Shown: piece by piece, positions 9,713-51,336 of the stretch | Numbering within the stretch: position 1 is the first letter of the stretch | Layout of the letters: each line of letters begins with the position of its first letter | Source of the DNA: Brachionus manjavacas | Taxonomy: Eukaryota; Rotifera; Eurotatoria; Ploima; Brachionidae | Length of the DNA stretch: 64,000 nucleotides | Reading direction: 5' to 3' | NCBI GenBank assembly: GCA_019054805.1 | Contig: JAHQIY010000008.1 | Location: 1,721,501 to 1,785,500, forward strand | Notes under the pieces: generated by a model | The model's database searches: none | What the model was told of the DNA's origin: nothing | The model's input: the letters and a program-made list of their open reading frames with translations, nothing else | Program-made: the position numbers and the translations under genes

Positions 9713-10294
9713 TGGTCAAAATATCAAAAGCTGTACGATTGGAATCATAAGTCTCTTATTTAAAAGATTTATATGAATCGTTTAATATGTAAATACTCTT
9801 TTTTTTAGATAAGGAAATAATTCGATCAAGTTTCTGTTTTGTTGAAACCTTGATTGTCTTCCATTGTCGATTATTATATCAAAAAGCGAGCCAAATTCCA
9901 ATCGTTTCAATGCATTGAAATCACTTTTACTTCCAATTAATAAATTTTAAGGTTTAATTTTAGTATTAAATCACAACCTTGGTCATATTCCAAAATAGAT
10001 ATTATTGAATTTTACAGATACTCTGTGATATAGCGACATCTTTGTCGATATCACTGGAAAGTTAATTAACTTAACCATGATCGTTTAAGTTAACAAGGAG
10101 CATAAATAGATGATCCAATACGTCTTACGACAAGATCGGAAAGACGGGCCCAAGGGTACTAATGTAAACATTACAAACATCTTCCAAAATAATAAGGATT
10201 TACCAGTTCCGTAGACAAGCCTAATTTCGAACACTTAGATTTTTTCATTTCGAATTGGACCAATAAACTATCCAATAAAATAGTACAATTTATG
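9713..10294. other. Non-coding flank left of the hAT block
   Basis: Mostly A+T-rich with no confident gene. A patch at about 10080-10200 is richer in G+C and can be read from an ATG at 10111 as MIQYVLRQDRKDGPKG followed by a possible GTACTA donor. This may be an old exon or a repeat, and I do not recognise it. Confidence 0.35.
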
Positions 10295-10302
10295 GATATA
10301 TT
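10295..10302. repeat. Left 8-bp target-site duplication, GATATATT
   Basis: The eight bases directly before the first base of the hAT terminal repeat (TAGGGTTGGTCGACC at 10303) are GATATATT. The identical word follows directly after the right terminal repeat at 24774-24781. hAT transposases generate 8-bp duplications. Confidence 0.65.
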
Positions 10303-12180
10303 TAGGGTTGGTCGACCGGTAGGAGGTAACCGGTTTTTAACCGGTTAAGTTTTAAGCCAATTAGGATGTATAACCGGTTATCAAATTGAGATGAATTTTC
10401 TGGTGATATTTTTCTTTATTTTTATTTTTTAATAAAATTATTTTTAAAAAATCAGATTTTGAAAATTTTCACAAAGAAGTCTTTTTGAAAATAACAATAT
10501 AATATTTTCTTTTGAACATGCGTTTTTTTCTCATAAAAAATATTTCAAAAAATTAGCTTTCTATTGAATTTAATTTTCTTGAATAAAAAAAAATTGGTGC
10601 ACCATGAAATTCTAGCACTTTTAGAAGCAATAAAATTTAAAAAAAAAATCTAAGCTTATGAAGCTTCTTTAATATTAATACATTTAAAATCTTATTCAAA
10701 CCAAAATTAAAAAAAATTGTATTAAATTAAATTATCTCACTTATTTGAAATTCCGATGTCAAGTAATTTGATTGATTCAAATCCTCAGATGGTTTTTCCA
10801 GTCTTGAAAAGAAGAAACGAAAGTGTTGTATGGAAATATATGAAAAAATATGAGAACAAAATTGTTTGCCAAGTAATCAATTGTTCGGCAGAATAACTAT
10901 TTCAAAACTATTTCAAGTTTGATGGCTGTTCATTTAGCTTACATTCATGAGATTCATGAAACAGGAATTGAAGACAATTCTGGAGAAACAACTTGCCCTA
11001 AAAGTCCAAGATCAAAACAAAATTTCTGAGCTCTTTATCGTTTTTGTTGAATCAAATATCCAATCATTTAGTAAAGCAGACGGTACAAAGTTTAGAAAGT
11101 TTGTCTTTCCTTTAAAACCACTTTTTGTTCTTCCGTATAGAAAAACTGTTCGGGAAATGATAGAAAGAAAGTTTGATGAAAAAAAGAATGAATTAAAGGA
11201 TATTCTTGCAATTAGCATATCGAAGATAAATTTGTCATGTGATATTTGGACTTCATTGAGTAAAGTTCCTTATCTTGCAGTTAACTGCCATTTTATTACA
11301 AATGATTGGAAGCTAAACGAATATATGTTGGATATTATTTATTTTCCACATCCTCATGATGCAAGTTTTATTAGCAATACAGTTTTAGAGGTTGAATTTT
11401 GTTTAATAAAAATTTAAAATTATTTTTATTTTGGAATATAGATACTGAATGATTTCCAAATATCTAATAAGTTTCACTCATTTACAAGTGACAGTGCTGC
11501 AAATATGGTTTTAGCGGCTGAAATGTTTTGTTCCAACCAAGAAAAATCTTTTCATGTTCGATGTGCAACCTATATATTGAATCTAATAGTGCAAACTGGT
11601 TTGGAAAATGATTTGTTCAAAAGAAAAGATAGAAAAGATTAGATACTACTTGAAAAAAATTCATTCATCAACAAAATAAATTCAATTTTTTGAGAGTCAA
11701 ACGGTTTCAAAAAATGAGCCAAAACTAAAAGTTGAACTTGATGTCGAAACTAGATGGAATTCGACACATGAAATGCTACAAGTCGCAATAAAAGTAAGAA
11801 AATCAATTACAGCGACTTAAATCCATCTTGAGAATGAAAAAGACTCAATTTTCCAAGAATTGAAACAACTGATTGGAATTATGCTGAAAAATTTATAGAT
11901 TTATTAGAGCCATTTAGACAGGGTAAAATAATTGATTCTTTTAAGATATTAATCTAAATATTGATTTAAAGGAACTATTGATCTTTCTTTTTCTAAGAAT
12001 TTTTCTTCGTCTCATTTCCATGCTTTTAACAAGTAAAAGATGATTTAAACTAGTTTGAAGCTGATAAAAAATTTGATTTTGTTCATGATGCGATCAGAAT
12101 TATGAAATCAAAATTTGAAGAAAACTGGATTAAAATTTTGGATAAAACACTAATCTGTCATGTTTTGGATCTAAGATTTT
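10303..12180 (+). mobile_element. hAT transposon copy 1, right end missing
   Basis: It starts with the terminal repeat TAGGGTTGGTCGACCGGT and several subterminal ACCGGT words. A transposase remnant follows: a BED-finger region from an ATG at 10756 (VWKYMKKYE, then two Cys), interrupted by a stop and frameshift, then a long piece at 10947-11390 with the hAT block INLSCDIWTSLSKVPYLAV. A 51-bp intron (11391-11441, acceptor TATAG) splices into ILNDFQISNKFHSFTSD and HVRCATYILNLIV. The copy is nearly identical to copy 2 (offset about 11,678 bp). Similarity stops near 12180, before the C-terminal dimerisation domain and right inverted repeat. The copy is non-autonomous. Confidence 0.85.
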
Positions 12181-12459
12181 AAAAAATAATCTTCTTAACT
12201 TGACTACAATCAAAATTTAATAGTCAAACGGAAGTGTTACTGTGTTGTCATCAAAGTTTAAAATTGGCGCTAGATTCATAACAAATCAACGATTGATTGA
12301 GGAAATTAATTAAATCAAATCAAATTACATTTCTCATAATAATCTAATCAGAATCGATTATAATACGATCAAATTTCAAATTCATAATTTGAAAAAAGCT
12401 CTTTTTCAATCTTGTCGTTTGGCTTAGCAAATTTGAAAAATCAAATTTTATTAATAGCG

Positions 12460-14470
12460 TCATCACGTGGTACACAGAACTATAAAAATTTGTGTGTTAG
12501 CAATGTCGCTAACCAATCCTTACCTAAATAGACGCTGGATTTTTAAAAATTCGGTCAAACTAAACCTTAAAAAGTTAGATAAACAAGTCACCCACAAAAT
12601 TATATTTATGATTATTCAAAATTATGACTCTCTTGATGTTACCCTTAATCAAGTCGAGAATGAATCAATCACGTCAATTTACAACTTTTCGTCGAATAAG
12701 ATATGGATTATCGAATTCAAATACTCATCTTATGTAGAAGAAATTTTTGGTCGAGAAATTGACATTAATGGCACAATTTATAAGCTTGAAGATGCGAATA
12801 AAATCCCGGATCTTAGAAGATATTGTACATTTAGAATCCACTTTCAAGCATGCCTTTTTGGAAAAAAAATAAACAAATTAAGAACACAGAAAGGATCAAA
12901 ATTAATATCAAATTTGATCTCAAAAAACTAGGAATTAAAAACTGATAAGGAAAAAGGAAAATGCTTCGGAGATATATTATCTTCAACATTTAGTCCTTAC
13001 TCTGATCTAATAGATACTGAAAAAGATAATGAAATAATTAGCTTTAATTTTGACCTCAAAAATTACAATCAGTGTAATTTCAATGATCCTATTTGCTCAA
13101 ACGAACTTTCACTGGCTTTAAAAAGACTGAAAATTGAAGCGGCTTCAGGACCTGACCAAATACATAATCTAATGCTTAAAAATTTACCAAGAAATTCCTT
13201 AATAGAAATCTCAAAACTTTTTAACCTATCTCTGCGACATGGTATTATTCCAAAATCATGGAAAACTGCGAACATAACTATGATTCAAAAAAATACATCT
13301 TCTCCACAAGATCCTTCAAACTAAAGACCAATCAGTAAAACAAGTTGCCTAGGAAAGTTACTTGAGCGTATAATCTACACAAGACTCTACAATTTTTTAG
13401 AAAAAAATTTTTTACTTATCCAGGAACAATCAGAATTTAGGAAACATCGGAGAACTTCCGATAATCTTTACATTTTGATTCAAAAAATTATAGAGTCATT
13501 TAATAGAAAGAAAAGAGTTTGTTCCCTTTTCTTTGATATTTCTAAAGCCTTTGATAGGGTTTGGCACGAAGGTTTAATTTATAAATTAATAAAAATAAAT
13601 CCACCACAATATTTAATTAACTGGATTAGATCCTTCTTAGACTCAAGGACATTTAGGGTGAATGTGAATGACTACTTGAGCGACGAATATCAAATAACTG
13701 CAGGTGTTCCTCAAGGCTCAGTTATTAGTCCTCTTTTATTTAGCATTTATATTAATGATATCCCTAAAAGAAGCAAAACAAATAATGAATACTCTCTTCT
13801 TTTTGCAGATGATCTAGTTACTTTTTTTATTTACAACAAAAAGGGGAATCTTGAAAATAAGATAAATAAATACACCAACGAGCTAGAACAATGGCTAATT
13901 AAGTGGAAAATGAAGATGTCAGTTGAAAAGTCTTGTTCAGTAATATTCTCTAGGTACAAGAAAGAAAGTGATAATCTTAACTTAAAAATTTATGGAAATA
14001 GAATAAAGGCCAAAAGGAAATTAAGTTTCTAGGAATTAAATTTGATTCTAAATTAAATTTTAATACACTGGTTGACGAAATAAAAGGACGTTGCAATACA
14101 AGGCTAAATCTAATTAAGATTCTGTCAAACAAAAAATGGGGTCTTAATCATAAATGTTGGGAAATCGTTATAAATCTTTAGTTGGTTCAATTCTAGACTA
14201 TTCGTTTCCTTGCTTGAATTCATTTTCAGAAAATAATATCAAAAAGTTACAAGCAATTCAGAATACAGCAGCAAGATCTATCCTCAGATAAAAATATGAT
14301 ACTCCCTCCAGCATCATGCATCAGGAGGCTTTTAATAAACTTAAATTACTGACAGTCTCGAATCGACTTCTAATTTTACTCAACTTAATTTTTTATTTTT
14401 TATTTTTATTTATATTCTGAAGGAGCTTTAGCTCGGTACAGTTAACAAATAAATAATAAATAAATAAATT
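12460..14470 (+). mobile_element. Jockey-like LINE, internally deleted
   Basis: The first open stretch (12467-12931) resembles a LINE ORF1/gag product (WIIEFKYSSYVEEIFGREI, YKLEDANKIP). It runs on, in a broken frame, into ORF2 reverse transcriptase: AASGPDQIHNLMLKN, WKTANITMIQKN, RPISKTSCLGKLLERI, FFDISKAFDRVWH (motif A), TAGVPQGSVISPLLF and LLFADDLVTFF (catalytic FADD, near 13800), then EIKFLGIKFDSKLNF and the C-terminal LQAIQNTAARSILR. The endonuclease is absent. A clean open stretch at 13475-14032 covers the palm. The 3' end carries TTAGCTCGGTACAG followed by (AAAT)n-type sequence ending near 14470. The copy is inactive, with stop codons in RT and an internal 3' deletion relative to the minus-strand copy beside it. 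Confidence 0.85.
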
Positions 14471-14539
14471 TAAAAAAAATTCACCTTTCACCTACAAAGA
14501 CTCCAACCTCAATACTCATTTAATCGAGAGCGAAAGACA

Positions 14540-14935
14540 TTTAATAGTTCAATTCAAGAGAGAAGAGATTGTTTTGTATTTTTTTTTTGTTTTGGATTGA
14601 CTCAGTCCTGTCCCAACATATCTCTCACTCATCTCAAAAAGTCGTTTCGAGACTGTTAGTAATTTAAGTTTATTAAAAGCTTCATGATGCATCATGTTGG
14701 AGGGAGTATCATATTTTAACTTAAGGATATATCTTACTGCTGTATTCTGAATTGCTTGTAACTTTTTGATATTATTTTCTGAAAATGAATTCAAGCAAGG
14801 AAAAGAATAGTCTAAAATCGATCCGACTAAAGATCTATATAAATTTCCTAGTGTGTTTTGATTGAGACCCCATTTTTTTTTGACAATATCTTAATAATAT
14901 TTAGCCTTTTATTGCAGCGTAAAGTTTGTTGAATA
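14540..14935 (-). mobile_element. Second copy of the Jockey-like LINE 3' end, inverted
   Basis: On the minus strand, 14794-14549 encodes NSFSENNIKKLQAIQNTAV, then YDTPSNMMHHEAFNKLKLL and VSKRLFEMSERYVG before a stop. This is the same C-terminal region as 14215-14365 on the + strand. Similarity continues upstream to about 14930 (the GGCTAAAT...ATGGGGTCT stretch). The two copies lie tail to tail, so the region folds as a large imperfect inverted repeat. This copy keeps the C-terminal residues that the + copy has lost. Confidence 0.8.
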
Positions 14936-15607
14936 CATTTTTATATATATTATGTAACAAGTTGATTTTTTACTCAATTAAGAAATTAATTTAATTGAAA
15001 TTGATACATTAATCAAGTTAAATTGACAAAAATCAAAAAATAAACAATTCTATGATAAATTTCTACTTTACAAATTAATTATCTACTATTGAAAATATTT
15101 ATCAATTTAAGTATATATTTTTATCCTAAAAAATTAAATACATTTAGCAAAAAATATTTTTAAACTGAAAAAAAATATTTATCTTTTAAAGAAAAACTAA
15201 AAATCACATTGCTAAGATAAGTAATTTGATTTAAAATAAATTTTATTATAATAATGCATTTAATATTAATTAAAATGCTTTGTTTTTCGTTAGGAGATAA
15301 ATATTTTCTTTTTTGTGATTAATTTAATTAATAAAAAGGCGATAAACAACAAGTTGCTAAATTATTTTTTTAAGAGATAAATATTAACTAAAATTTTTTA
15401 AAATTACGTTTGAAAATAGTTTATCAGCGCTCATGTGAAATCAATGTAAAAAAAACTTGATAATTTTAATTTTTAGTCTTTAAGACTTAAATTAGATCGC
15501 TAGAATAAGCATTATTTGAATAGATAAATATAATAATATTATGAAATTAAGATAATTTCAGTTTTAAATTCTAATTAATTTTTTAATTTAAGAATATAGA
15601 AAGTATA
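14936..15607. other. A+T-rich upstream region of the HEPN-MYND gene
   Basis: No coding or repeat signature was seen. It should contain the promoter and 5' UTR of the gene that starts at 15608, but no recognisable core element can be singled out in this base composition. Confidence 0.4.
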
Positions 15608-18600
15608 ATGGAAAAAAAAAATTATACCGAAAATTTTTTTAAATTGCAACTTTTGTTAAAAAAATCAAATGAATTTATTAGAAATTTGTTTATCGAAATC
15701 TATAAATTTGAAACAAACAGTGCATGGATTGAAAGTGGTAAAAGTGCTGAGTTGTTTTTTGAATCACAAAATGGTAAAACTGCCTTTAATATGATGACGA
15801 AAATTCAGAAAAAATATGCTCTAAATGGCGACACATCAAAATGGGACATCAGTTTGATGTATTTAATTTTTTCGAATACAAAATTAGTTGATAAATCAAA
15901 ACTAAAGCATTTAGAAAAAATTAGAGAAATTCGCAATAAAGTAGCACATAATTCGGATATGAGCTTGAATGATCAAGAATATCAGACTTGCTTGTCTCAA
16001 CTTGAACAATGTTTGATTAATTTAGGAATAAATAAAATAGAAATTGGCCAGTTTTTGTCTAATTTAAAAGAGAATAATAACGCAATTAAACAATCTAATA
16101 ACAGCGATAAAATTTTAGATTTAAAAAGCAAAGCAGATGAAAGCTTTGCACAAAATAATCTTGGTGAGTCAATTGAGCTATACTCCCAGGTAATTGATCT
16201 TGATATGTCTGATGATTTAAAGTCAAAAATATACTCAAATCGGTCTTTAGCCTATCTGAAATTGTTTGAAAAAAAATTTAGAAAAAACAAAGATTCGCTA
16301 TTTAAAGCTTTGATCGATGCTGAACAATCGGTGAATTTTAATCCAAAATGGTTCAAGTCATATGCTTGTGTGGCCCAAGTTTATATGGAATTCAATGAAA
16401 AAGAAAAAGCAATTGAGAATTATACCAAAGCTTTAGTTTTAAATCCATCAAATGAAGAAATAAAATCATTGCTCGCCAATATTAGATATTTAAATTTTGA
16501 GCAAAATCGTTATTCTCATTTGAACGCTAACACACGGCCAAAAACGACAGAAGAACGATTTGAAGAGTTCATTCAAAAACAACAGCCTAGATTTGGTATC
16601 AGCTCTGATCAATTGGCTGACAATATTAAAAATTGACAAATAAACTTGAAAAAAATTTGAATGATGTTTTTTTGGCTCATGAATATCGTGATGGTTCAGC
16701 AAAATGCACTCAAGACTATGAAAAGGCAGCTAAATTATACAGTAAAGCAGCCATGAGTGGAAATATTGAAGCCATATACAATTTGGCTCTGTTAACATTT
16801 GATGGTAAATGTGTTAAACAAGATTACCAATTAGCACTAAGCTTACTTAAAAGAGCAGCGAGTCAGCCAGCTTTTAAAATAAATAAATTCTCAAACGAAA
16901 TTCCAGTTGCAGGCGTTGCTGAATCACAGCATTTTTTGGGCATTATTTATCATGTAGACAAGAATATCGCTTTAGCCATTGATTTCTATCAAAAAGCTGT
17001 AGATACAGTCAATCCTCCGTACAACGAAACCCCATAGAACGAAAAACCCTATAGAACGAATTCGATTATCAGAACCGATTTCGATCAATGGAAAATGAAT
17101 ACTTTTTATCTTCTATAGAACAAATTTCGATGCAACGAAAACCCGATACAACAAGGTTCTTCTAACGAACCAATTAATCTTTTTCTTAAGAAATAAAACT
17201 TCATACAACGAAAAATCAAAAAAAAATTCGCACCTTTATATTATAAAAAAAATCTTTGGAAATAAAGCAAAAATTTAATTGTTCTTTATTTGACTTTATC
17301 TATATTCTCTCAATAAAAAATATATATTTACAGGTAAAAATTTTATCTGTTAATCTTTTTATTAAAATGAGTGAAAATAGATTTCGAAAAAAATGCTTAT
17401 GTTTCAGTCGACTCAAATTTAGCAGCACGTGGTTCGCTTTCTGATTTGCAAATTTTAAATACAGTTGCTACAAAAAAAGAAGAATCAGACAATAGTGACA
17501 GTGAAATTGAAGAGTTAACTCAACCGAAAAAGTCAATCATTAGTTCAAAAGAAGCAATCGAACGAATTAACGATTTAAAAGATTTTTTTTTAAATCAACA
17601 AGAATATGATTCATCAAATATCGTTAACTTTTTGTTTAATATTGAAAATTTGGTAATTGAAAAAAGTTGTATAAACAAACAACTATTACTTCGTATGTTA
17701 AAAAGGATTAATTTTTCATTTCATTTTATTTTTTTATAAATTTTTTCACCTTTTTCATTTATTTTAATAAAAATTCAAAATAATAAATCTTAAAATTTAT
17801 TCAATGCTTTTGTATGGGATTTTCGATAGAACGAATTTCGATACAACGAATATAAAAATTTCCGCCTAACTTTGTCGTTATATCGAGGATTGACTGTAAT
17901 GGTTTTCCTGGCTCAGCAAATAATCTTAGCATACTTTATTTAAAAGGTGATGGTGTAAAAGTTGATCTGGATAGGGCTGAAAATTTGTTCTTGTTTTGTC
18001 ATAAAAAAGGCTGTTCGGATTCAATAACTAATCTTGTTGATTTGTATTTAGCTAAAGGTGATTCGACCAATGCTCTTTTATGGCATAAACGAGCACTTGA
18101 AAACAATTCATTAATTGACTTGAGCCGAAATGAATCAATTTTAAAGGCAATAAATGACTTAGATGAAATGAAAAAGCTGGCCAATATTCCTACAGATCAA
18201 AGTATAGATTCGTATCTAAAAAATAATTTGCCTCATGTTTATAAATTAAAGAGCAATTATCAGTGTAAATCTTATCCAAATGAAAAAAAACCTAGAACAT
18301 ATGATCCAGAGATGCTTGTGGAGCATGCAAATAAAGGCTCTGCAATTGCTCAAAGAATACTTCATGCTTTGTTTATTTTCAGTGGTGCCTTGAGCGATTA
18401 TGTTAAAATTACAAATTTAGACAATTTTCAATTAAATTCAATAGTTGAAAGAATGTCCCAAGCTATTCAAATAGAAAGTCTTGTCTGTCAACTCCCGATT
18501 GAATTACAAGATGATTTAATTAATAAATTGGAGAAAATACTGGCTTTGAATTTACAAGATGAAGAAAATTTTAACGCAAGTATTTGCTATGTGCATTTAA

Positions 18601-19706
18601 TTATGGCTAATTATGAGAAAACTATTATGTTCATAGATGAGGCTTTGAAAAAATATCCAGATTGTTTACATATGCATCTAGTTAGAGGGTCTATTTTTTG
18701 CTTTTTGGAAAAATATGAGCAAGGTCTAAAAGAATTTGAATATTTGATCAGAATACAGCCAGACAACTTTGAACTTTATTATTTTAAAGCAACTGCTTTG
18801 AAAAATCTTGGAAAATTTAACGAAGCATTTAAAAATTATGAATTTTTTATTCTAAATTCTGAGAAAGATGCACGCGAATTACCAGAGGCTTACTATTCAA
18901 TGGGTCTAATTCAAGAAATTTCATCACCAAAAAATAAAATATTGAATTCAATGAATAAAATTATACAAAAATATCTTAATAAAGGCAAACAAGCCGAGCA
19001 AGACCAGTTGCCATGCTTTTTGCCATTTGAAAGTCACTCTAAAGACATGCTGTCAAATATGGTTGACTTAATAAACAATAAAATCAATAATATACCACAA
19101 TTCAATATTCACAATGATAATTATCGCTATGAACTTATAAAAGAGCATAGAAAATCATTTCTAGACATTCAAAATTTAATTTTGTCATCTCAAATTATCA
19201 TTAAAGCAACTTTAGTACCACCCAAAGCCCAAAAAGCTATGTCTTTTTTAGAAGACTTCAAGGAAATTTATCTAAAACAAATAGACTTTACCAAAGATGA
19301 AATATTAAATAAATTTTATATCAATTTAAGAGTGTTTGACTATCCATTTTTTGGATTAACTTCTGTTTTTTTTCTGGTCGAAGATCAAAATGGTACGATG
19401 GAACGATTGAGTGTTTACAATTTAGGAGACGATTACGAAAAAATAAAACAAGATTTTAAAATTGGCACTTGGATTGCAATTATTAATCCTTATATTAGAC
19501 AAGCAGCTGATGGAAAGCCAATGATTAGAGTTGATGATGTAAAAAGTATTAAATTTACTGGAAAGTATACAAACAAAATGTGTCAATATTGTGGAAAAGC
19601 CGATTCTAAATTTAACTGCTCAAAATGCATGAAAGCATTTTACTGTAGTAAACAATGTCAAGTGGATGACTGGAAGCAACTAAACCATAAGCTTGTTTGT
19701 TTTTAG
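15608..19706 (+). pseudogene. HEPN-TPR-Sel1-MYND protein gene, broken by frameshift and Tigger
   Basis: Three open segments form one gene: 15608-16636, 16633-17005 and 17898-19706. Residues 1-150 resemble the HEPN domain of DZIP3-like proteins, with the Rx4H motif RNKVAH at 109-114 (HEPN domains are often RNA-cleaving or nucleotide-binding). Then come TPR helices, Sel1-type repeats (QDYEKAAKLYSKAAMSGN; DYQLALSLLKRAAS), further TPRs (NFELYYFKATALKNLGKFN), a helical region, and a C-terminal MYND zinc finger (CQYC, CSKC, CSKQC, HKLVC), a protein-interaction module. Break 1: at 16626-16636 the frame shifts by one in an A run; one extra A would join NIK to KLTNKL. Break 2: a Tigger element at 17006-17896; removing it with one TA copy restores the frame exactly (VDNGFPGSAN). 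Either the gene is dead here, or break 1 is a sequencing error and break 2 a polymorphic insertion. The coding frame is otherwise clean, so inactivation is recent. Confidence 0.8.
17006..17896 (+). mobile_element. Tigger/pogo-like DNA transposon, internally deleted
   Basis: The 891-bp element has inverted ends CAGTCAATCCTCCGTA... and ...GAGGATTGACTG and a TA duplication on each side (17004-17005 and 17897-17898). Its subterminal DNA is full of ACAACGAA / AGAACGAA words, typical of pogo/Tigger ends. Inside, 17371-17739 encodes an acidic tail with SDSEIEELTQPKKSIISSKE and a helical end (FLFNIENLVIEKS), matching the C-terminal end of Tigger transposases. The DNA-binding and DDE domains are deleted, so it depends on a transposase elsewhere. 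It lies within a Sel1 repeat of the HEPN-MYND gene, in the same orientation. It shares its ends and the FLFNIEN motif with the element at 48342-49162. Confidence 0.88.
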
Positions 19707-20635
19707 CTTACAAACAACTACAAATTTTTGACTATATTTTTAAAAAATTGTTCTTTTTAAGTTTAAAAAATTTTTAAGAAGGATTGAAAAGTTTGTACCA
19801 ATACCATTAGGAATTTTGGAACAAAAAACAAAAATTTTTAATTTGAATACTTTTTTTTCTGACTTAATTTTGAAAATTCTATCAATCATAAATCCTTGGT
19901 ATAAATTTTAAGTGAATTTTGGTTAATATTCTAGAACTTTCTAAAATAACTAAAATAATCTAGAGATATTCAGTTTTAGATAGAAATAACACCATGAAAA
20001 CATAACTTTCTTTCTTGGCTAAGCCAATTTAAACCTAATATACCAGTTATTTTGGCAAATTGAAGTTTCTGATCTAAATTTTTGTGCTCATGCTCAAAAT
20101 TTATCTTTTAAAAATTTTTTAATGTGTTTGAAATGATAAATGCAGAGACATGTTTTTATGTGTAGTAAACTATGTTAAACCATATCTGAGTGTTGTGCAT
20201 AATTTTATATGCAAAAATTTTTTGCAGAAATGTACATTTATAAAATATTAAGTTTAGCATTGAATTTTAACTTTGAAAATGTCTTTCTGAAAAAAAATTA
20301 AAATTCTAAAATAACTTATAAACCTTGTTTATAATAAAAAAATTTTGAATATGATCATTTTAATTTGATCATAAACTTCAATTTGCCATTATTTTGGATT
20401 GTGTGGGTAATGGAATTATAAAACAAGTTTAATCATTGATATTTCATTATCAGTTAACAAAAATTTGTATCACACAAATCTAGCTTTGCAATAAAACTGC
20501 ATTTTATTTAATTTTTTGTTAAAATTTAAGGAAATAAACTTTCAAAATAATCTTTCTACACTCTTAAGAGTAATGAAAATTTGTCAAATATGATGCTTCT
20601 TTAATGGAATCTTGAGATAAGATAAGCTATATCAT
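19707..20635. other. Downstream region of the HEPN-MYND gene
   Basis: A+T-rich with no open reading frame or repeat that I can name. The 3' UTR of the preceding gene must start here. Confidence 0.4.
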
Positions 20636-20690
20636 TATTTATTTTATTTATTTATTTGTTTTTTGTACCGAGCTAATGCTTGTAACTGGT
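20636..20690 (-). mobile_element. Short 3' tag of the Jockey-like LINE
   Basis: Read on the minus strand this shows TTAGCTCGGTACA followed by A-rich sequence and (AAAT)n repeats. It is the same word and tail order as the 3' end of the LINE at 14425-14470. It is probably an extremely 5'-truncated insertion of the same family. Confidence 0.55.
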
Positions 20691-21980
20691 TTATAAAAAA
20701 ATAAAACATTTATTACTTAAATTTATTTTTATTTATTAAAAAATAGTTTGTGTTTAAAACCCTGCCAGTTTGGAATGGATCTTAGTCATTCCTTTCAACC
20801 ACATTAAAAAAAACAAAACAATCCGACACGAAAACGTCCACGTACACTTCCTTGTTTAATTTTATGCGTATTTACACATACGCGTACACAAACATGCCTC
20901 ATTTACACTATAAAAACGTTAAAATAACAGGTGTATGTGATAGAACATTTGTAATTTTTAATTTAAGAAATTATTTTTATAAATTATCTTGAAAAATAAA
21001 TAGAAAATTTTAAAATTCTTTTTTTTAAACCAAATTGTGCCAAAAATTTTATAATGAATGTTATAATTATTTTTCTTTCGATTTATTTTATTTAATTTTG
21101 TTTATCTTTAAAATAAATAAAACTCAAAAGAGTATTTTAACAAATTAAAAAAAATGACACCAAAAAAAAAATTCTAATTCTACAAGGCCGTTCTGTTCCA
21201 CTCGCTAACTAAGATCAAATACTAAAAGAATAAACTAACATAATTCTGACCGGTCATATAATTCTATCAACATGCAATTCTGGGAAGTCAATTGAGTGAA
21301 AATTCAAATCTTGAATAAAGGCATTGTGAATTTTGGTACAAAAAACAAAAAAACATGTAAAAAATGTCAAAGCTCAGGTTCTGAAGGAGCAAAACATGTT
21401 CTGTAAATTGGAGCATCTGAAACATCCTTTGTACCACAAATAAACTGATTCTGCAAAACTCTGCACTACATCTGCAAAATTCATAATTTTGTGAATTATA
21501 GTATAAAATCAGAAACAAAATATAAAATACACCATAGATTTAATTGGACAAGCGAAAAAATATTCTGTAAAATGTAGCAACTAGTACATCCTCTATACCA
21601 ACATTTAATGTACAAATAAAATTCTAAAATTAAAAATCTTACGAAGCATTTAAATCACTGTTTAGGCAACCTAAAGTATAGAATTTTAAAATTTTGATAT
21701 GTTTTAAATGTGTTTAATAATTTTTCAATACTATTTAATTGATTATTTTTTCTAAATCGAAAAAATTTAATTTAATTTTTATTTTTTATCAAAAGCCCTT
21801 ATGGCAAACTGAGGCCACTACATTTTACTGTGCACGAACCTACATACGACAACCAGAACATCTAAGAACCCAGCTATCTCAAAAACTCCATGTGCCTGGT
21901 GATAATCGAGCTGATCAGGCGCGAAAATCTGATGCCAGATCTATTCAGCATATCCAACATATCTGCTGAGCACAAAAAGC
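20691..21980. other. Spacer with one G+C-richer patch next to hAT copy 2
   Basis: Mostly A+T-rich. A patch at about 20785-20940 has several ACG-containing words, and 21790-21970 is clearly richer in G+C and open in one frame (TEATTFYCARTYIRQPEHLR, then LHVPGDNRADQARKSDARS). The latter ends just before the hAT terminal repeat. It looks like a fragment of an unidentified coding sequence or transposon rather than random DNA, but I cannot name it. Confidence 0.35.
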
Positions 21981-24773
21981 TAGGGTTGGTCGACCAGTAA
22001 GAGGTTACCTGTTTTTAACCGAATAAGTTTTAAGTCAATTAGGATGTATAACAAGTTATCAAAATCGGTTAAGATGGATAACCGGTTATCAAATTGAGAT
22101 GAATTTTCTGGTGATATTTTTCTTTATTTTTTTTTTCTAAATAAATTATTTTTAAAAAATCAAATTTTGAAAATTTTCACAAAGAAGTCTTTTTGAAAAT
22201 AACAATATAATATTTTCTTTTGAACATGCGTTTTTTTCTCATAAAAAATATTTCAAAAAATTGGCTTTCTATTGAATTTAATTTTCTTGAATAAAAAAAA
22301 ATTGGTGCACCATTGAATTCTAGCACTTTTAGAAGCAATAAAATTTTTAAAAAAAATCTAAGCTTATGAAGCTTCTTTAATATTAATACATTTAAAATCT
22401 TAATCAAACCAAAATTAAAAAAAATTGTATTAAATTAAATTATCTCACTTGTTTGAAATTCCGATGTCAAGTAATTTGATTGATTCAAATCCTCAGATGG
22501 TTTTTCCAGTCTTGAAAAGAAGAAACGAAAGTCTTGTATGGAAATATATGAAGAAATATGAGAACAAAATTGTTTGCCAAGTAATCAATTGTTCGGCAGA
22601 ATAACTATTTCAAAACTATTTCAAGTTTGATGGCTGTTCATTTAGCTAACATTCATGAGATTCATGAAACTGGAATTGAAGATAATTCTGGAGAAACAAC
22701 TTGTCCTAAAAATTCAAGAAAATATTTTTTTGTTCAAAACAAAATTTCTGAGCTCTTTATCGTTTTTGTTGAATCAAATATCCAATCATTTAGTAAAGCA
22801 GACGATACAAAGTTTAGAAAGTTTGTCTTTTCTTTAAAACCACTTTTTGTACTTCCGGATAGAAAAACTGTTCGGGAAATGATAGAAAGAAAGTTTGATG
22901 AAAAAAAGAATGAATTAAAGGATATTCTTGCAATTAGCATATCGAAGATAAATTTGTCATGTGATATTTGGACTTCATTGAGTAAAGTTCCTTATCTTGC
23001 AGTTAACTGCCATTTTATTACAAATGATTGGAAGCTAAACGAATATATGTTGGATATTATTTATTTTCCACATCCTCATGATGCAAGTTTTATTAGCAAT
23101 ACAGTTTTAGAGGTTGAATTTTGTTTAATAAAAATTTAAAATTATATTTTATTTTGGAATATAAATACTGAATGATTTCCAAATATCTAATAAGTTTCAC
23201 TCATTTACAAGTGACTGTGCTGCAAATATGGTTTTAGCGGCTGAAATGTTTTGTTCAATCAAGAAAAATCTTTTCATGTTCGATGTGCAACCTATATATT
23301 GAATCTAATAGTGCAAACTGGTTTGGAAAATGATTTGTTCAAAAGAAAAGATAGAAAAGAAAAGATTAGATACTACTTGAAGAAATTCATTCATCAACAA
23401 AATAAATTCAATTTTTTGAGAGTCAAACGGTTTCAAATAATGAGCCAAAACTAAAAGTTGAACTTGATGTCGAAACTAGATGGAATTCGACACATGAAAT
23501 GCTACAAGTCGCAATAAAAGTAAGAAAATCAATTACAGCGACTTAAATCCATCTTGAGAATGAAAAAGACTCTTGAATGAATTGAATCAACTGATTGGAA
23601 TTATGCTGAAAAATTTATAGATTTATTTGAGCCATTAGGACAGGGTAAAATAATTGATTCTTTTAAGATATTAATCTAAATATTGATTTAAAGGAACTAT
23701 TGATCTTTCTTTTTCTAAGAAAATTTCTTCGTCTCATTTGTTTTCATGCTTTTAACAAGTAAAAGATCATTTAAACAAGTGTGAAGCTGATAAAAAATTT
23801 GATTTTAATTATGAAATCAAATTTTATGCGATCAAAATTATGAAATCAAATTTTGAAGAATACTGGATCAAAATTTTGGATAAAACATTAATCTGTCATG
23901 TTTTGGATCCAAGATTTAAAGCACATTATATTGTTTGTAGATTATTTAAGATTTTTAGTTTTTATTGTAGATTTTTAGTAAAAAAATTAATAGATATATA
24001 TCAAACTTCTATTGATTCTAGTCCAAGTCTACCGAGTACGTCTATAAATATAGAAAAAAAAGAATGATCGTTTACTTTAATGGAGCGTATGATTTCTAAG
24101 ATTACAAATACAAGAGAAAATGATGAAGATGAACCCTCAACTTATCTAAAGCAGCCTCCAATTATTTATTCGAATGAATATGATATTTTACAATGGTGGA
24201 AAGAGAATAACAAAGATCTTCCTTTCATGGCCCAGATTGCAAAAGACTATTTATCATTAATGCCTACCAGTGTTTCTTCTGAAAAATGCCTTTCGATTGG
24301 CACACTAACAGTTGATAAAAATAGAACACGATTGCACTCAAATACAGTACTACTTTGCTTAAAATCTTGGATTAGTTGAAAAAAAAAATAAAAGTTTGAT
24401 AAAAAAAAATATTTTTTTTGTTATTTCCATTACTTAATTTTTTTTGAAAATATAAATTTTTACAAATTAAAACTAGACTGGTGATGCCGGTTTTTTAAAA
24501 TCCTAGAAGTTTTCAAATTGATTTTGATAGCCGAATTTATTTTTAAACCGGTTTTGATTTCTGGTTATAGATTCAAACTGGTTTTGATAACCGGATATAG
24601 ATTCAAACCGGTTTTGATAACCGGATATAGATTCAAACCGGTTTTGATAACCGGTTATAGATTCAAACTGGTTTTGATAACCGGATATAGATTCAAACCG
24701 GTTTTGATAACCGGTTATAGATTCAAACTGGTTTTGATAACCGGTTAGGTTTCTAACCGGTCGACCAACCCTA
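21981..24773 (+). mobile_element. hAT transposon copy 2, both ends present, transposase decayed
   Basis: A 2.8-kb element with terminal inverted repeats TAGGGTTGGTCGACC / GGTCGACCAACCCTA. The transposase reads: BED-finger region from ATG 22464 with a TAA at 22602-22604 and a frame change; 22627-23109 with INLSCDIWTSLSKVPYLAV; then FTSDCAANMVLAAEMF and HVRCATYILNLIV after a former intron whose acceptor AG has mutated to AA (near 23167). The C-terminal dimerisation domain is at 24080-24379 (YDILQWWKENNKDLPFMA, SSEKCLSIGTLTVDKNRTRL). The right side carries a tandem array of ACCGGTT-type binding words. The element is not coding-competent, but its ends look intact. Its left flank and right flank do not match each other; the right flank matches the left flank of copy 1. 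Confidence 0.9.
24540..24750. repeat. Subterminal 30-bp tandem repeats of the hAT element
   Basis: About seven tandem copies of a 30-bp unit containing AACCGGTTTTGATAACCGG followed by ATATAGATTC, differing at a few positions. Each unit holds a short inverted pair, AACCGG and CCGGTT, also scattered at the left end (10318-10382 and 22010-22090). Such arrays near hAT ends usually bind the BED fingers of the transposase. As a side effect the array is open in frames on both strands and produces repetitive peptides that are not genes. Confidence 0.85.
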
Positions 24774-24781
24774 GATATATT
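24774..24781. repeat. Right 8-bp target-site duplication, GATATATT
   Basis: GATATATT follows directly after the last base of the right hAT terminal repeat (CCAACCCTA). It is identical to 10295-10302, the word just before the left repeat of the first hAT copy, 14.5 kb away. Confidence 0.65.
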
Positions 24782-24937
24782 TGTATACAATCGAACTTCT
24801 AAAATCAAATCGAAACTATGTTTTCAATGTGCAATTATTATTATTATTTATTTCAGAAATTACGCAAGATTTGGCGATGAAAAAAAATTAAATATAAAAG
24901 AATAAAAATATAAAAAAAAAACTCTTAAAATAAATAG

Positions 24938-25319: not shown

Positions 25320-26431
25320 TTAAATTATTTTGACTTTTTCAATAATTTTTAAAATATTTTTGGCTTGCAGTAAAGAAGGCATGTCTATCATTTGGCCTTT
25401 ATAAGTAAACGCACCCTTAATTAAAAAAAAAATTAAATATTATTAAGAAATTTATTTATTTTAATTACAGCTCCTGATTTTTGATGATGCTCAAAGGCCT
25501 CAACAAGACCAGTGGCCCATTCGACCTTTTCTTTGGACGGAGTGAAAGCATTTTGGCAAACATCGACCTGTCCCGGGTGAATAACCTGTTTTCCAGTAAA
25601 GCCCATTCTTGCTCCTTGTTCGCACTGCGTTTTCAAGCCTTCTAGGTCTTTAAAATCAATATAGACCATGTCAATAGCTTTGAGTCTATAAGCCTTGCAG
25701 TAAGTGACTAATTTTTGTCTTGCATAAATTAACTCGTGAGACTCCTTGGTTCTTGATGCTCCAATATCTGCACAAAAATCATCTGATCCAAACACAAATC
25801 CCTCCAAGTTGAATCTTCCATGGTATTTTTCAGCAGACAGACTCAAAGCTGTTTTGATAATATCGTTTAAATTAATCAAACTAATGGCTGATTCCATGTA
25901 AAAAAACATGTTTAAACTATCGAAATCTTTGTATTGTTTAGTTTGATCATGGAGGGTTTCGAACAGCCATCCAATTTCTTGAGCATTGTTGGTTTTCGGA
26001 ATAAAAATGCATTTTGGAAGAAGATTTCTTGTGGTATTTTTACACTTTATTTCCTGTTTAATAGTGAAAATAGTTTTTATGTCCTCAAAGGCTAAGCTTG
26101 TTTCAGCCGGGTTTATTCTCACCGTGAATTTTCCGTCTGCATTATTTTGAACTCTTTCATCTGAATCAAACAAATTACGGATTTTTTCTCGGGCCTCGGA
26201 TTTTTTGTTTAGAGCTACTCCGTCTTCGCAGTCTAGAACAATACAGTCCGCATTTGTGGCAAATATTTTTGAGAGTTTTTTGCTATCGTTGCCTGGCACA
26301 TAAAGACAAGCTCTTGATGGGGATGAAGCCTTCAAGCCAATATCAGGATTAGATAAACTTGAAAAAGTTAAATATTTTTTCTTTTCTACTGATTTAATCA
26401 ATCGATTTAAATTAGATCTAATTGAAAACAT
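25320..26431 (-). CDS. CLYBL: Citramalyl-CoA lyase, mitochondrial (citrate lyase beta-like)
   Basis: Member of the HpcH/HpaI / citrate lyase beta family. In mammals CLYBL cleaves (2R)-citramalyl-CoA to acetyl-CoA and pyruvate in mitochondria, part of itaconate disposal that protects vitamin B12 metabolism. Two exons, 25469-26431 and 25320-25415, are separated by a 53-bp intron (GTAATT...TTAAG), giving 352 residues, close to the human length. Without splicing, the C-terminus would be wrong; with it, HHQKSGA joins GAFTYKGQMIDMPSLLQA, the conserved family end. Visible motifs: SRACLYVPGN (substrate loop), VLDCEDGVA (67-73), RINPAE with the conserved Arg at 105, FFYMESA with metal-binding Glu near 180, FGSDDF with Asp at 217-218, and GFTGKQVIHPGQ. 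The N-terminus is basic and Ser-rich with no acidic residue in the first 15, consistent with a mitochondrial presequence. Confidence 0.93.
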
Positions 26432-29400
26432 TTTAAAAATTAAAATTTGTTCATTACTTTCGTTATTTTTTATTTCAAAATTTCAAATTAAACAAAACAT
26501 TCTGTTTTGACGGCAAAAGTTTTGAAGAAGTGGGCTTAATAAAGCTAAAATGCAATGTTTATTTTCAAATTTAGAATTAAATTGGTGGCCAAAAAGTAAA
26601 GAAACACGAAACTATTTTATCAAAAAAAGACCATTGCTGGGTGATTTAACTTCTTTATTAAGTTCCATTTGAAGACATATACCAAGTCAGTTATTAATAA
26701 TTGCAAACATTTTTGTAATAAAATTTTTTTCAATAACATTATTTTGTTTTTTGAAATTCTTAAAAGGAAAAAAAAAACTATAGAATTAGATTATTAAAAA
26801 TTGCTCTTTATTTTAAAAATGTTTATGTAGTAAAAAATTCTATCAAAAAAAGCTAATCGGTTAGAGTTCTATCTATTAGTTTGCTTTCTTTCGTAGTCAT
26901 AGCTAGAAACAACGAAATATGAATTTATACATCAGTTTATACTCAAATAATGCTGAATTCGATGGTTGTAATTTAAAAAAAAATACAACTAACCATTAAA
27001 ACGTTAAATACAATTACTTGATTTATTTGTTATTTTTTAAGTAAGCTCAATTTCTGTTACGATTCGTCAAAATCAGAGTTATTTAAAAATCTTAAGTCAA
27101 GCCAAAGTCACTGACTTAAAATTTTTTTTAAGTCAATTTTATTTTAACTAGCAATTATTGCTTAATAATTTATTAATGCGAAGTATTAATATAATTTTAA
27201 TTTTTTTATATTTATACATTTCCTAAAAATTCATAAATTACCGAAAAAATGAGCATTTTTGAAACAGGATTAATATTTGTAGGGGCAAACACTTTTGAAG
27301 TATAAAATGGTAAAGAAATGTCTAAAGTTTTTATGAAGAATTTTATTCTAACTTTTTTTGTGTAAAATTGAGAATTTACTATAATCAGCCAAAATTTGAT
27401 AATAAAATCTAATTCCATTCAAAATAGATCACATTTTATTCACGAAAACCCCTTTTTTGAACTTGGTATAATTTCATCGTTTTTGGGATGTTTTTGATGA
27501 TATCTTTTGAACTGAGCATCGGAAAAAAAAGAAATAGGTAGCACTAGAGAGCTGATAAAGTTTTCTTTTCAACGATATACAATACTATATTGGTAAAAAA
27601 TGAAATTCTCGAGGACATTTTTAAGGTTGATTAGAGCTCAAGATCACCAGGGTTTTTTGCTACCTATTTGTCCAACGAGTTATCGATTGTATTATATATA
27701 TATATATGTTCTCATTCTTTATCTGTATAAAATTTCATCGGAAACAAACATTCTTTCACATTATTTTTTAATTAAAAATTTTGGTCAAGCTTAATTGAAC
27801 ACCCGTTGTTGTTGCTTATTAATTTGAATCTTTTTATTTAAAAAACTTTTATAAAATAAATCCAATAAATTCTATTTAGATTGCATTTGTTAAGATAGTT
27901 AAGAATTCCATCGCTATACTATCAAAGAATAATGCCTGTTTTTAAACAACATTTGAAAGCAATTTTTCAGAACTAATTTTACTTTCACCAGATAAAATTT
28001 TGTTTAAAATTTCAAGCAAATCGATATGTTCAAAATGCATCGAATATCGATTATTATCATGGTATTGTGTGTCTGAACATGCCATTTTTGGGAAAAAACT
28101 GCATAACAACTAAATTATTGGCAGTGTAAATGTAAAAATAAAGAAAAATGTTCAAAAATAAATGAATAATAGAATAAAATATAGATAATTCTGTATCGAA
28201 CATTAACTCATTCACATTAAAAAATGTATATATTTATTTAAGAAAAAAAGATAAAAAATTTTATCTAAAATCCGAAAATTTATTTATTTAAAAATTTAAA
28301 GCCTCATAGGCAAATTGAAAAAGAAACACAAAAATACAAATTACAATTAAAAAAAAAAAAAAAAAAAAATTATTTATGAAAATCGCATTAATTTTCATAA
28401 ATAATTAATAGATCCATTTAAATTTTAAAATTTTAAATTTTAAAGTCTTGATTACATAAAAGAGGGGTAAAAAAAAGAAAAAAAAATCTAGATAATCAAG
28501 AAATCGCAGGCTTAAGTAAAAGATTCAAGTAGTCAAAATAAAAGTAAAAAGTTAAATTACTATCTAATGAAATTCTAATTTTATGAACAAAAAACTTAAC
28601 TGAGTCAATTAAGCCTCTGTTTTGGCACGTGAACAGCTCATTAATAAATTCGAGTAAGACTTTTTTTTTCATATTCTTGGCATTCAACACTAATCTTTTG
28701 TTCCAATGTTCTCAATTGTCTGCCAAAAGAAGTATCATTTCTCGAAGTAATTACAGGTATTTTCTTAATCTTCTATTAGCATTGCTGTATATGCTTCTTC
28801 GGTATTCTCAAATTGTTCCAATCATAACTGTTTATCTCACTTGCAGCATGTCAAATTATTACTATGTCGAAAGTCATATTTGTCAAAATTTACAATTTTG
28901 TTTATCAAATTCTAACTGATTATTTTGAATACACTCTATGATACTGCAATTAGATCGTAATATGATATTTTGTTAGCCATTGAATTGAATATAAAGAAAA
29001 TCGGATTGTTAATTGTGAATTATTTAAAGTATTCAAAGGAAATGTTCAGAGCAGTCAATCTACTGTCATCGCTTATTCTCAATAGGGTCGCACAAGAAAA
29101 GCTTTCCTTAAAGCCTGATAATCATCAATCGCATTGATTTAATTTTCATTGTTTGTGAGATTTTTTTCAGATTTTTTTCGAATTTTGCTTTAAAAACATG
29201 ATATATGTATTCAATTTAATTTAATGATTAAAAATAATTTTTTAATTAAAAGAAACTTTGAATTTTAATTGAGTAAAAAAAAATCTAATAGATAAAGAGA
29301 TTTATTTTTAGTTATATCTTGTAACTGTTCTACAACTATTAATGCACTATACTAATATTTAAGTTGGAATTTTTATTTATTTAAATTTTTTTTTTAAATA

Positions 29401-48320: not shown

Positions 48321-48341
48321 ATTATTTGAAATTTTTATTTA

Positions 48342-49162
48342 CAGTCAATCCTCCGTATAACGAGACCCTATATAACGAGAAACCCTTTATAACGAGCAAC
48401 TTGGCTAGAACCGATTACGAGCTATAGAAAAAGATATAAAAATTAATTCGATATAACGAGTTTCGATATAACGAAAACTTGATATAACGAGCTTATAATG
48501 AAATACCGCTTAATCATTTTCTTAAGAATAAAAACTTCCTATAACGAGCTTGAACAAAAGAAATTTTTTCACACTTTTTAAATAAAAAAAAAATAAAAAT
48601 AAAACAATTAACTTATCTTCATGAATAACTATAAATCACCAGAAAACATTTCCTATCTAATTGTTTATAAAAAATGTCCAATCTTAATCAAAAAAAAAAG
48701 AAAGTGTATTTCACTTGAAACAAAAGTTGAAATAATAAAAAAACATTGCGAACAAAAAATCGCTACTTCAATTCTCGCAAAAGAGTATAGCGTCAACACA
48801 TCGACCATTTCGACAATTCTCTCGTCTAAAGAAAAAATTTTAGAGCACTTTGAAAAGAACTTGTGCGGTACAGAAAAAAAAAGAATCAAATTTATTTCTC
48901 AAAAATAGTTGATTTTTTGTTTAATATTGAAAATGTTGTGATTGAAAAATGTAATACCAAACAAACATCTATTAAAGATTTTGTAAAAAAACAATAATTT
49001 TGTATTTTTTTTCCTTTTTTATTTATTTTTTTACCAATAAACATTTTGAAAAAAAAAAAATTTTTTGCCCATCTTTTTCAATGCAATTTCGATATAACGA
49101 GTTTCGATATAACGAGCAACGAAATTTTCGCCCAACTTGCTCGTTATATAGAGGATTGACTG
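48342..49162 (+). mobile_element. Tigger/pogo-like DNA transposon, second copy
   Basis: An 821-bp element with inverted ends CAGTCAATCCTCCGTATAAC and (reverse) CAGTCAATCCTCTATATAAC, flanked by TA on both sides. Subterminal DNA carries repeated ATAACGAG words. Inside, 48621-48908 encodes the N-terminal CENP-B/pogo-type helix-turn-helix domain: KRKCISLETKVEIIKKH, then ATSILAKEYSVNTSTISTIL. After a stop, a short C-terminal transposase end follows (FLFNIENVVIEKC, about 48910-48995). The DDE catalytic core is deleted. It shares ends and the C-terminal motif with the copy inside the HEPN-MYND gene, but keeps the DNA-binding domain that the other lacks. The 48620-48908 frame is clean, so the copy may be fairly young. 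Confidence 0.88.
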
Positions 49163-51336
49163 TACCATCAAAATTTATTAAGATTCGACCTAGTAACTTT
49201 AAAAGTAATATTTTTATTTCTATTAAAATTAGAGTTAATTTTATTTTATTAAATTTAATTTTTATGATAGCACACAATTTTTCCTAAATTGAAAATTTTT
49301 TTTGAACAAATTTTTCCAAAAAATATAACTATTAACCAAAATTTAATTCATATCACAAAGTCCATAAATCTTAGTTATAATACCTTTCAAAAGTTTAAAA
49401 TTTTATTTTTATTAATTTTTATAATTTAAAAATAAAAAAATAAACCTAGAATAAAAATTAACATCTGCAATTTAAACAACTAAATAAATAAGATTATGTT
49501 TTATCTTATTATATCTTATTATTTATAAAAAGGTATCTACTATATAAAAAATTATTTAGTCAAAAATGTGGGGTGTACATTTTTCAGGTATACAAATATA
49601 TTACAAGCATAAAATAAAATAATAAAAAAATTGTAAAAGATTATTCATTTTGGTTGTTTCTATCGTTTTTCATATTCTAAAAATGAGAAAAGAATCTAAA
49701 GAATCTAGAATGACATATGTTCTAATTATTTTAAAAGAGATTTTCTCATTTGAATCAGTTTCATGGAAGAAAAGCAAATTATTTTCTCAAAAAATAATTT
49801 ATCAAATCTGTAAAATGCTGTTTTGTGCAGTTTTTTTTTATTATAATTAGTAACCTCATAGGCATTGTATAAAATTTTTAAATGAAAAAACTTACAAAAT
49901 AGTATAAAATTAATTAGTCTTTCAAATTTGATTATTTTAATTAGTTTTTTCTAGTAATGAAATGAGAAATTTAATCTAAGGTTTAGTTATTTTTTTTGTT
50001 GAAAATAAAAATGAAGATTTGAAAAATAATCAGAGTTTATTAACGCAGAGCCTTATAAGTTTCTATTTAAAATTTTTACGACAAAATAATTTTAATTAAT
50101 AAAAGCTAATTTTTCAAAAAATATACCGATATCATATCTATTTAGAAATCATATGAAAAAAGTTAATTCATAGATAGTATTTTGATATTTGTATGCTCTT
50201 TTCAAAGACATCACCGGCTTTTGGGTGCATATTGAAAGTTATGATGGTTTTTTATTTTGTCTTTTTTCATTTAAAATTTTTGTGTGATTTTAATTTTTTT
50301 TTGATGAAAAAAGATGCACAGTTAAGGCAAGTCCGCAGAAAGAATAAACAAAATTTTATATTTTAATTTTATCACTTCAAAGAGCTCGATAAATGATTGA
50401 TAAGTAACTGCAAAAAAGGCATAGGTTTCTAAAGATTTTTAAATTAGCTTTTCAAATTTTTTTAAATTTAAATTATAATTCAATAAAATTTTAAAATTCA
50501 ATATTCTAAATTGAGGCAATTTTTGGATTGTAAAATTTAATAAAAAACCTTATTTTTTTGGTAATCATTAATATTTACAAAACTCTGCAGAAAAATTTTA
50601 TAATTTTTAAATAATTAGATTTTCATGAAAGAAGCCTTTTCTATTATGAAAATATATTTTAGCTCTAATTATTTAATGATCATTAATATTTGATCATAAT
50701 CTTCAATTTACTAACTATTTTTGTGATGAAACACTTACCGATGGCATATTATGTAGTTTTTTCACTAGTTACCAGCAAGTTAGAAATTTTAAATTAAAAA
50801 TTTAATTTCTTTATTCTCTCTATTGAAGCTTCATTAATTTTTGTGATACTCTTGAGAATTACATGTAATATTTTCTATAGCAAAAATTACGATTTTTATA
50901 AAAACATTCTTCATTCAGGTAAAATAATTATTAATCTTTTTGATTTTTTTGTTTATTCTCTATCAATTCTTGATTTAAAAGAAAATAAGTAAAATGAGAA
51001 TTTGTCAAAAATTTATTCATAAAAACAAAAAACTACTTTAAATTTTTTCTTAAATTTCATAACAACCTGAATATAAAAATAATTGTAGATATTAAAAATT
51101 CTTATTAATTAAAACCTAAAACCGGTTTAGAGCAAGGCAACACATCAGCCATTTTAAACTTTATTTTATCAAATTTAAACGAAATATTTGTACCAGCTTA
51201 AAATTGCGTTTAAATACACATTTACAAAAATAAATTAAAAATATTTGTACACAAAAATATAAATGAGATTTTAGATAAAAAGAGATAGTATCCAGTTTTG
51301 GTTGATTAATGGTCGATAAACAACAGCTTTTAAAGC
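49163..51336. other. Intergenic region 3' of the receptor kinase
   Basis: No gene was recognised. The stretch at 49650-49850 that can be read as 66 residues has random-like composition. The right part contains the 3' UTR of the kinase gene on the minus strand. Confidence 0.45.
51160..51165 (-). terminator. Possible poly(A) signal of the receptor kinase
   Basis: AATAAA on the minus strand, about 170 bp past the stop codon; no closer AATAAA was seen on that strand. Confidence 0.35.

Follow-up and report, generated by a model that had tools for sequence, protein, structure and literature searches.

Macrotransposons of the maize Ac/Ds system, reportedly the subject of Huang and Dooner (2008), are among the closest described counterparts of the structure considered here, a 14,471-bp block bounded by the outer ends of two hAT copies in a 64,000-nucleotide stretch of the rotifer Brachionus manjavacas genome. 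This stretch, hereafter the window, is C8:1721501-1785500 and lies on a 5.2-Mb contig of a 114-Mb assembly in 61 contigs. The left end of copy 1 and the right end of copy 2 behave as the two ends of a single insertion, and their use together in one insertion event is supported by a shared 8-bp target duplication. According to the available parts of the maize reports, a macrotransposon mobilised up to 100 kb (PMC3260210), and a 28-kb macrotransposon excised and left a modified 8-bp duplication behind (PMC9910405). Two animal cases are related, as far as the accessible text of each describes them. In the aphid Myzus persicae nicotianae, a hAT element lies at the 5' breakpoint of relocated CYP6CY3 copies, for which that paper puts forward alternative transposition or nonallelic recombination (PMC7202869), and in Anopheles gambiae a macrotransposition of P elements was proposed for AgaP2-P12MITE (PMC1562414).

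Set beside these systems, for which the comparison extends to the same partial texts, the rotifer locus shares with maize Ac/Ds macrotransposons the joint use of one end from each of two hAT copies, the carriage of the intervening DNA, and an 8-bp target duplication or its footprint (PMC3260210, PMC9910405). It differs in that movement was observed in maize with an active Ac present, whereas here there is one static case, known from its sequence, in which both copies are decayed, one has no right end, and the donor was not found in the assembly. Maize Ac composite insertions likewise place transposon ends and an 8-bp duplication around internally joined flanking segments, but those segments are duplicates of a known donor, while no second copy of the rotifer interior was found (PMC4270019). 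The aphid case also joins a nonautonomous hAT element, on the animal side, to a relocated gene, although the text seen describes no pair of copies with a common outer duplication (PMC7202869). AgaP2-P12MITE resembles the block in its two neighbouring partial copies and in the proposed en bloc move that uses a single 5' and a single 3' end, but it belongs to the P superfamily and the proposal explains a short element with its middle largely deleted (PMC1562414). Among the literature matches listed, which were judged by titles and abstract openings and cover the field in part, no hAT macrotransposon from an animal appeared. Composite hAT transposition, regarded as uncommon when this stretch was first read from its letters (the sequence-only reading), is already documented in maize Ac/Ds; the present locus is one natural example, and its earlier position was not found.

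The borders of the block were read directly. At the left, GATATATT at 10295-10302 is followed from 10303 by TAGGGTTGGTCGACCGGT; at the right, ACCGGTCGACCAACCCTA terminates at 24773 and GATATATT recurs at 24774-24781, exactly as the sequence-only reading had placed them. The terminal inverted repeats are identical over 15 bases at all three ends and over 18/18 at the two outer ends, in line with the short terminal inverted repeats of the hAT superfamily. A window search with the 18-bp end, allowing up to three mismatches, recovered exact matches at both outer ends and one with a single mismatch at 21981; no further site was found in the window at this threshold, and shuffled sequence gave an expectation of zero. 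The flanking octamers of the outer pair agree at 8/8, against 3/8 for copy 2 by itself, whose inner left flank, CAAAAAGC (21973-21980), is indeed a different one, as had been claimed. The locus therefore combines neighbouring copies of one family, contributing the outermost left and right ends, with a duplication that surrounds these ends but not the inner copy, as expected of a macrotransposon.

The window, from an AT-rich eukaryotic genome, has a GC content of 26.6%, within the 24.95-31.14% given for monogonont rotifers (PMC11954553). The octamer match was compared with chance. GATATATT is AT-rich and common by itself (6 occurrences in the window versus 5.9 expected), and the probability of its standing exactly at the second end is about 8e-5 from its frequency, or about 1.8e-4 for two random octamers. 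As a control, the flanks were read at every genome site of the 15-base end with at most one mismatch, which gave 41 ends (23 forward, 18 reverse) and leaves ends with two or more mismatches outside the set. None of the 405 non-neighbouring left/right pairs agreed at 8/8, one reaching 7/8 and one 6/8, while among the seven short neighbouring pairs (378-1,933 bp) three agreed at 8/8, two at 6/8, one at 3/8 and one at 1/8. This family makes ordinary 8-bp duplications elsewhere in the genome, and the observed arrangement of ends and flanks is confirmed as real. No second two-copy structure of the family was seen, other left/right pairs within 60 kb among the 41 ends spanning no more than 1,933 bp.

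Two observations from the same set of ends stand apart. The short elements with mismatched flanks lie at C3:1570842-1571389 (1/8) and C6:450641-451096 (3/8) and are perhaps recombined or old copies. Additionally, two forward ends 155 kb apart, at C21:837441 and C21:992734, have the identical outer flank AATCCGCG, perhaps through segmental duplication.

The DNA left of copy 2 holds a gene-like fragment (21712-21980) cut by the left end of that copy. Its relative on contig C1, 83% and 87% identical in two blocks, reads through GAGCACAAAAAGC, past CAAAAAGC, and for about 430 bp further in the fetched sequence; its translation suggests a putative exportin gene. This continuation has no match in the window, so the present right neighbour of copy 2 is not its original one.

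Among the longer matches, copy 1 is the one closest to copy 2. Over 1,874 aligned positions, with gaps excluded, the two share 96.9% identity; they differ at 59 positions in one alignment and 61 in another, plus insertions and deletions. Position-by-position identity to copy 2 is about 90% for the longer other copies C1a, C1b and C6 and 84% for C10a. With gaps counted, as in the genome search, copy 1 matches copy 2 at 93%, other matches longer than 1.4 kb at 78-88%, and short related fragments (187-623 bp) at 90-93%. When substitutions were scored against the per-column majority of eight other fragments, including a poorly aligned one from C3 (65%), 62 were common to both copies, 25 were private to each, 130 were ambiguous and 3 remained unclassified; with no outgroup in this reference, the changes scored as shared could belong to either side of the comparison. 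The shared substitutions in 22630-23120 fall on the three codon positions as 8/7/6, a small sample (n=21) with no signal of coding constraint, and a single-base insertion at 23345 is present in both copies and in 0/4 other copies covering the site. The common ancestor of the two copies was probably decaying already, so that movement would have needed a transposase in trans.

Copy 2 retains the C-terminal domain of hAT transposases (Dimer_Tnp_hAT, E = 7.9e-16, 58.1 bits against a cut-off of 21.4). Eleven other genome matches to this domain reach at least 60% identity; eight contain stops, and the remaining three cover just 32-46 residues, within frames of 49-58 aa. No working transposase of the same family was found among these matches, and relatives with longer open frames are at most 53% identical; mobilisation in trans would accordingly have to be assumed. 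Motifs of the ACCGGTT/AACCGGT type would, by analogy with Ac, be binding sites of the transposase. Three of them occupy the left end of copy 1, while the left end of copy 2 keeps one, the first two being mutated. Beside the right end of copy 2, about seven tandem 30-bp units with ACCGG motifs (24512-24773), a stretch that is also an open frame on the minus strand, are plausible as putative binding sites.

That copy 1 has no right end, another point of the sequence-only reading, was borne out between the copies (to 21980), where blastn with the right part gave only matches of 12-17 bases (E >= 0.11) and tblastn with the C-terminal domain gave none. A right end hidden within the interior was rejected, as neither the end search nor self-comparison revealed one. 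Just beyond the break, the stretch 12183-12400 matched nowhere else in the genome among the best 40 of 3,849 candidates.

Macrotransposition, with a transposase pairing the left end of copy 1 and the right end of copy 2, is the likeliest route to this arrangement and is considered rather probable. At an assumed donor locus, two sister copies in direct orientation would have been separated by about 10 kb, with copy 2 inserted at CAAAAAGC and the right end of copy 1 already lost. A hAT transposase would have been supplied in trans, both copies being decayed; the left end of copy 1 and the right end of copy 2 would then have been paired and inserted at GATATATT, duplicating 8 bp and carrying along intervening DNA that would have been contiguous before the move. 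The ends used, one left and one right in direct orientation, support this route, as do the outer octamer match, the lack of a duplication around copy 2 by itself, the continuation of the C1 relative and the motifs kept at the left end of copy 1. It is the best-supported and simplest version and fits a single copy of the gene inside. It is likely that a pre-existing contiguous block moved as one.

Several observations weigh against macrotransposition. No donor scar was found in the assembly: the right half of the cut gene fragment occurs at three places and the left half is attached at all three (3/3). Nor is there an empty site, the joined flanks of the block matching only themselves (2/2 candidates). 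The single-GATATATT joint of 10294 and 24782 predicted by the sequence-only reading was looked for in this assembly alone, where it did not appear; the first part of that reading's single macrotransposon, the joint use of the outer ends, is supported (8/8, against 0/405), while its second part, the prior contiguous block, gained neither an empty site nor a donor scar from the same assembly. A repeat at the insertion point that could reveal an empty site in the same genome was likewise rejected, since the immediate flanks were unmatched among the scored candidates (10200-10302, best 40 of 490; 24774-24831, best 40 of 134). Furthermore, the left end of copy 2 still matches its own right end at 17/18 and equals that of copy 1 over 20 and 25 bases (18/20 and 20/25 for both), and is therefore not obviously unusable. 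An additional event has to be assumed for the loss of the right end of copy 1, and a run of 304 bp without differences, between copies that otherwise diverge by about 3%, would also fit recombination; these last two points keep two other explanations in play.

The first of these is a composite insertion formed by alternative (reversed-ends) transposition and re-replication, as in maize. The ends of two neighbouring copies would be cut at a replicated donor and moved to an unreplicated site, the elements and their flanks would be copied again, and the forks would break and the broken ends be joined; the repair joint would be the point at 12182 where copy 1 stops. A single event would thereby explain both the truncated copy 1 and the outer duplication, and maize composite insertions have 8-bp duplications, one internal joint and lengths of 10-24 kb in the part of the report available (PMC4270019). 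The outer duplication is present and the 12182/12183 break may represent either this joint or a deletion that happened afterwards, but re-replication predicts a duplicated interior with the donor copy left in place, and none was found (28/28 protein candidates; DNA, best 40 of 1,065 and of 3,849). In the maize case, moreover, the same part of the report does not show the element itself cut at the joint (PMC4270019). This route appears unlikely, and a natural composite insertion outside plants, with 12182 as the joint and the donor copy since lost, is doubtful. The other explanation starts from a single hAT copy at GATATATT, a copy that would have acquired the interior afterwards through homologous recombination or break repair involving another hAT copy, for example when a circle carrying the interior plus part of a hAT copy integrated, or when repair copied the flank of the other copy. 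The anatomy would be identical, and the 304-bp run is unusual between such copies (5,000 simulations; p = 0.0002 for 61 independent sites, 0.0046 for 49 clustered events), although conversion between the two repeats at a later time would explain it equally well. Late entry requires a circle or a copied donor, and the failure to find a second interior weighs against the copying version; it is held to be improbable overall.

Two further explanations were weighed. An assembler could have confused two copies that are 97% identical and misplaced the interior, but at least two wrong joins would be required to exit the site and return to its other side, and this in a contig and an assembly of the contiguity given above, with copies that differ at 59 or 61 sites and by insertions and deletions; such a join is very unlikely. 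Alternatively, the copies would have inserted separately, a recombination deletion between hAT copies would have altered the flanks of copy 2, and the octamers would match by accident. The AT-rich, common octamer is compatible with this, as are the two of seven short pairs (2/7) without matching flanks, which indicate that ends do become separated; the chance probabilities (about 8e-5 to 1.8e-4) and the 405-pair control speak against an accidental duplication and leave this account scarcely credible. A tandem duplication by in-place unequal crossover between hAT copies was rejected, as it expects a second interior to the right; window self-comparison revealed none there, and the protein search of the genome (28/28 candidates) gave no near-identical second copy of the gene.

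The HEPN-like/TPR/MYND gene that the sequence-only reading took to be a carried host gene does lie inside the block, but it looks disrupted. Its HEPN match is below the curated Pfam cut-off (24.8 against 27 bits), its reading frame shifts near 16.63 kb, and an 891-bp insert, presumably of the pogo/Tigger class, interrupts a region that both paralogues keep as a single open frame (C3, 801 aa; C6, 685 aa). The frame change may be a small intron. Given the frame change and the insert where the paralogues are open, the moved cargo may be a pseudogene among transposons. The suggested second locus for the gene did not materialise, since a protein search of the genome (28/28 candidates) found no near-identical copy, only the paralogues, with amino-acid identities of 56-63% for the one on C3 and 40-52% for the one on C6, the closest match being 63%; this absence favours cut-and-paste. 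Other copies of the block, also proposed, were not found either, a DNA search with 14900-21980 yielding repeats and short pieces only (best 40 of 1,065 candidates). The window gene is open over 17856-19706, where the C3 and C6 paralogues have gaps of 1.8 and 2.8 kb, respectively, in different places; these gaps appear to be introns or inserts without a counterpart in the window gene. A relative of the pogo-like element, 72-74% identical, lies at 48340-49164 of the window, and among the matches listed further relatives elsewhere in the genome reach up to 99% over part of the element's length. Among the LINE sequences of the interior (Table 1), the larger fragment has relatives up to 96% identical among the best 40 of 3,849 candidates, and 12400-12868 overlaps a separate repeat.

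Outside the block, 10001-10199 is a repeat whose other copies in the genome reach 96% identity (best 40 of 490 candidates). They occur in pairs with a spacing of about 365-390 bp, as would the direct terminal repeats of a short element, and a single unit lies here. The right neighbour, on the minus strand at 25433-26482, is a citrate-lyase-beta-like gene (HpcH_HpaI, E = 2.1e-37). At gathering scores, Rfam gave no match within the window.

Table 1. Features of the block and its borders, in window positions
Feature	Position	Strand	Basis
Left copy of the 8-bp target duplication, GATATATT	10295..10302		Direct reading, octamer counts
hAT copy 1, 5' two thirds including the left end; right end missing	10303..12182	+	96.9% identity to copy 2
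Break where the hAT similarity of copy 1 stops	12183..12183		Alignment, genome search
LINE fragment with reverse transcriptase	12835..14487	+	RVT_1, E = 1.2e-35
Second LINE fragment, inverted relative to the first	14549..14920	-	Open frames, self-comparison
HEPN-like/TPR/MYND gene, probably broken	15587..19706	+	Pfam, paralogues on C3 and C6
pogo/Tigger-like element, 891 bp	17006..17896		12-bp inverted ends without mismatch, flanked by TA on each side
Gene-like fragment truncated by the left end of copy 2	21712..21980	+	Relative on C1
CAAAAAGC, inner left flank of copy 2, without partner to the right of copy 2	21973..21980		
hAT copy 2, both ends, transposase frame broken	21981..24773	+	Dimer_Tnp_hAT at 24068-24379
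30-bp tandem repeat units carrying ACCGG motifs, next to copy 2's right end	24512..24761		
Right copy of the 8-bp target duplication, GATATATT	24774..24781		Direct reading, octamer counts

Since the carried gene looks disrupted, the case bears on the restructuring of genomes more than on the movement of a working gene. If confirmed, it would show, in nature and outside maize, two decayed hAT copies having taken about 10 kb of unrelated DNA to another location; elements that are dead but have good ends could then still move genes, or what is left of them. If re-replication were instead the true route, the maize mechanism would extend to another branch of the eukaryotes and to elements without a working transposase of their own.

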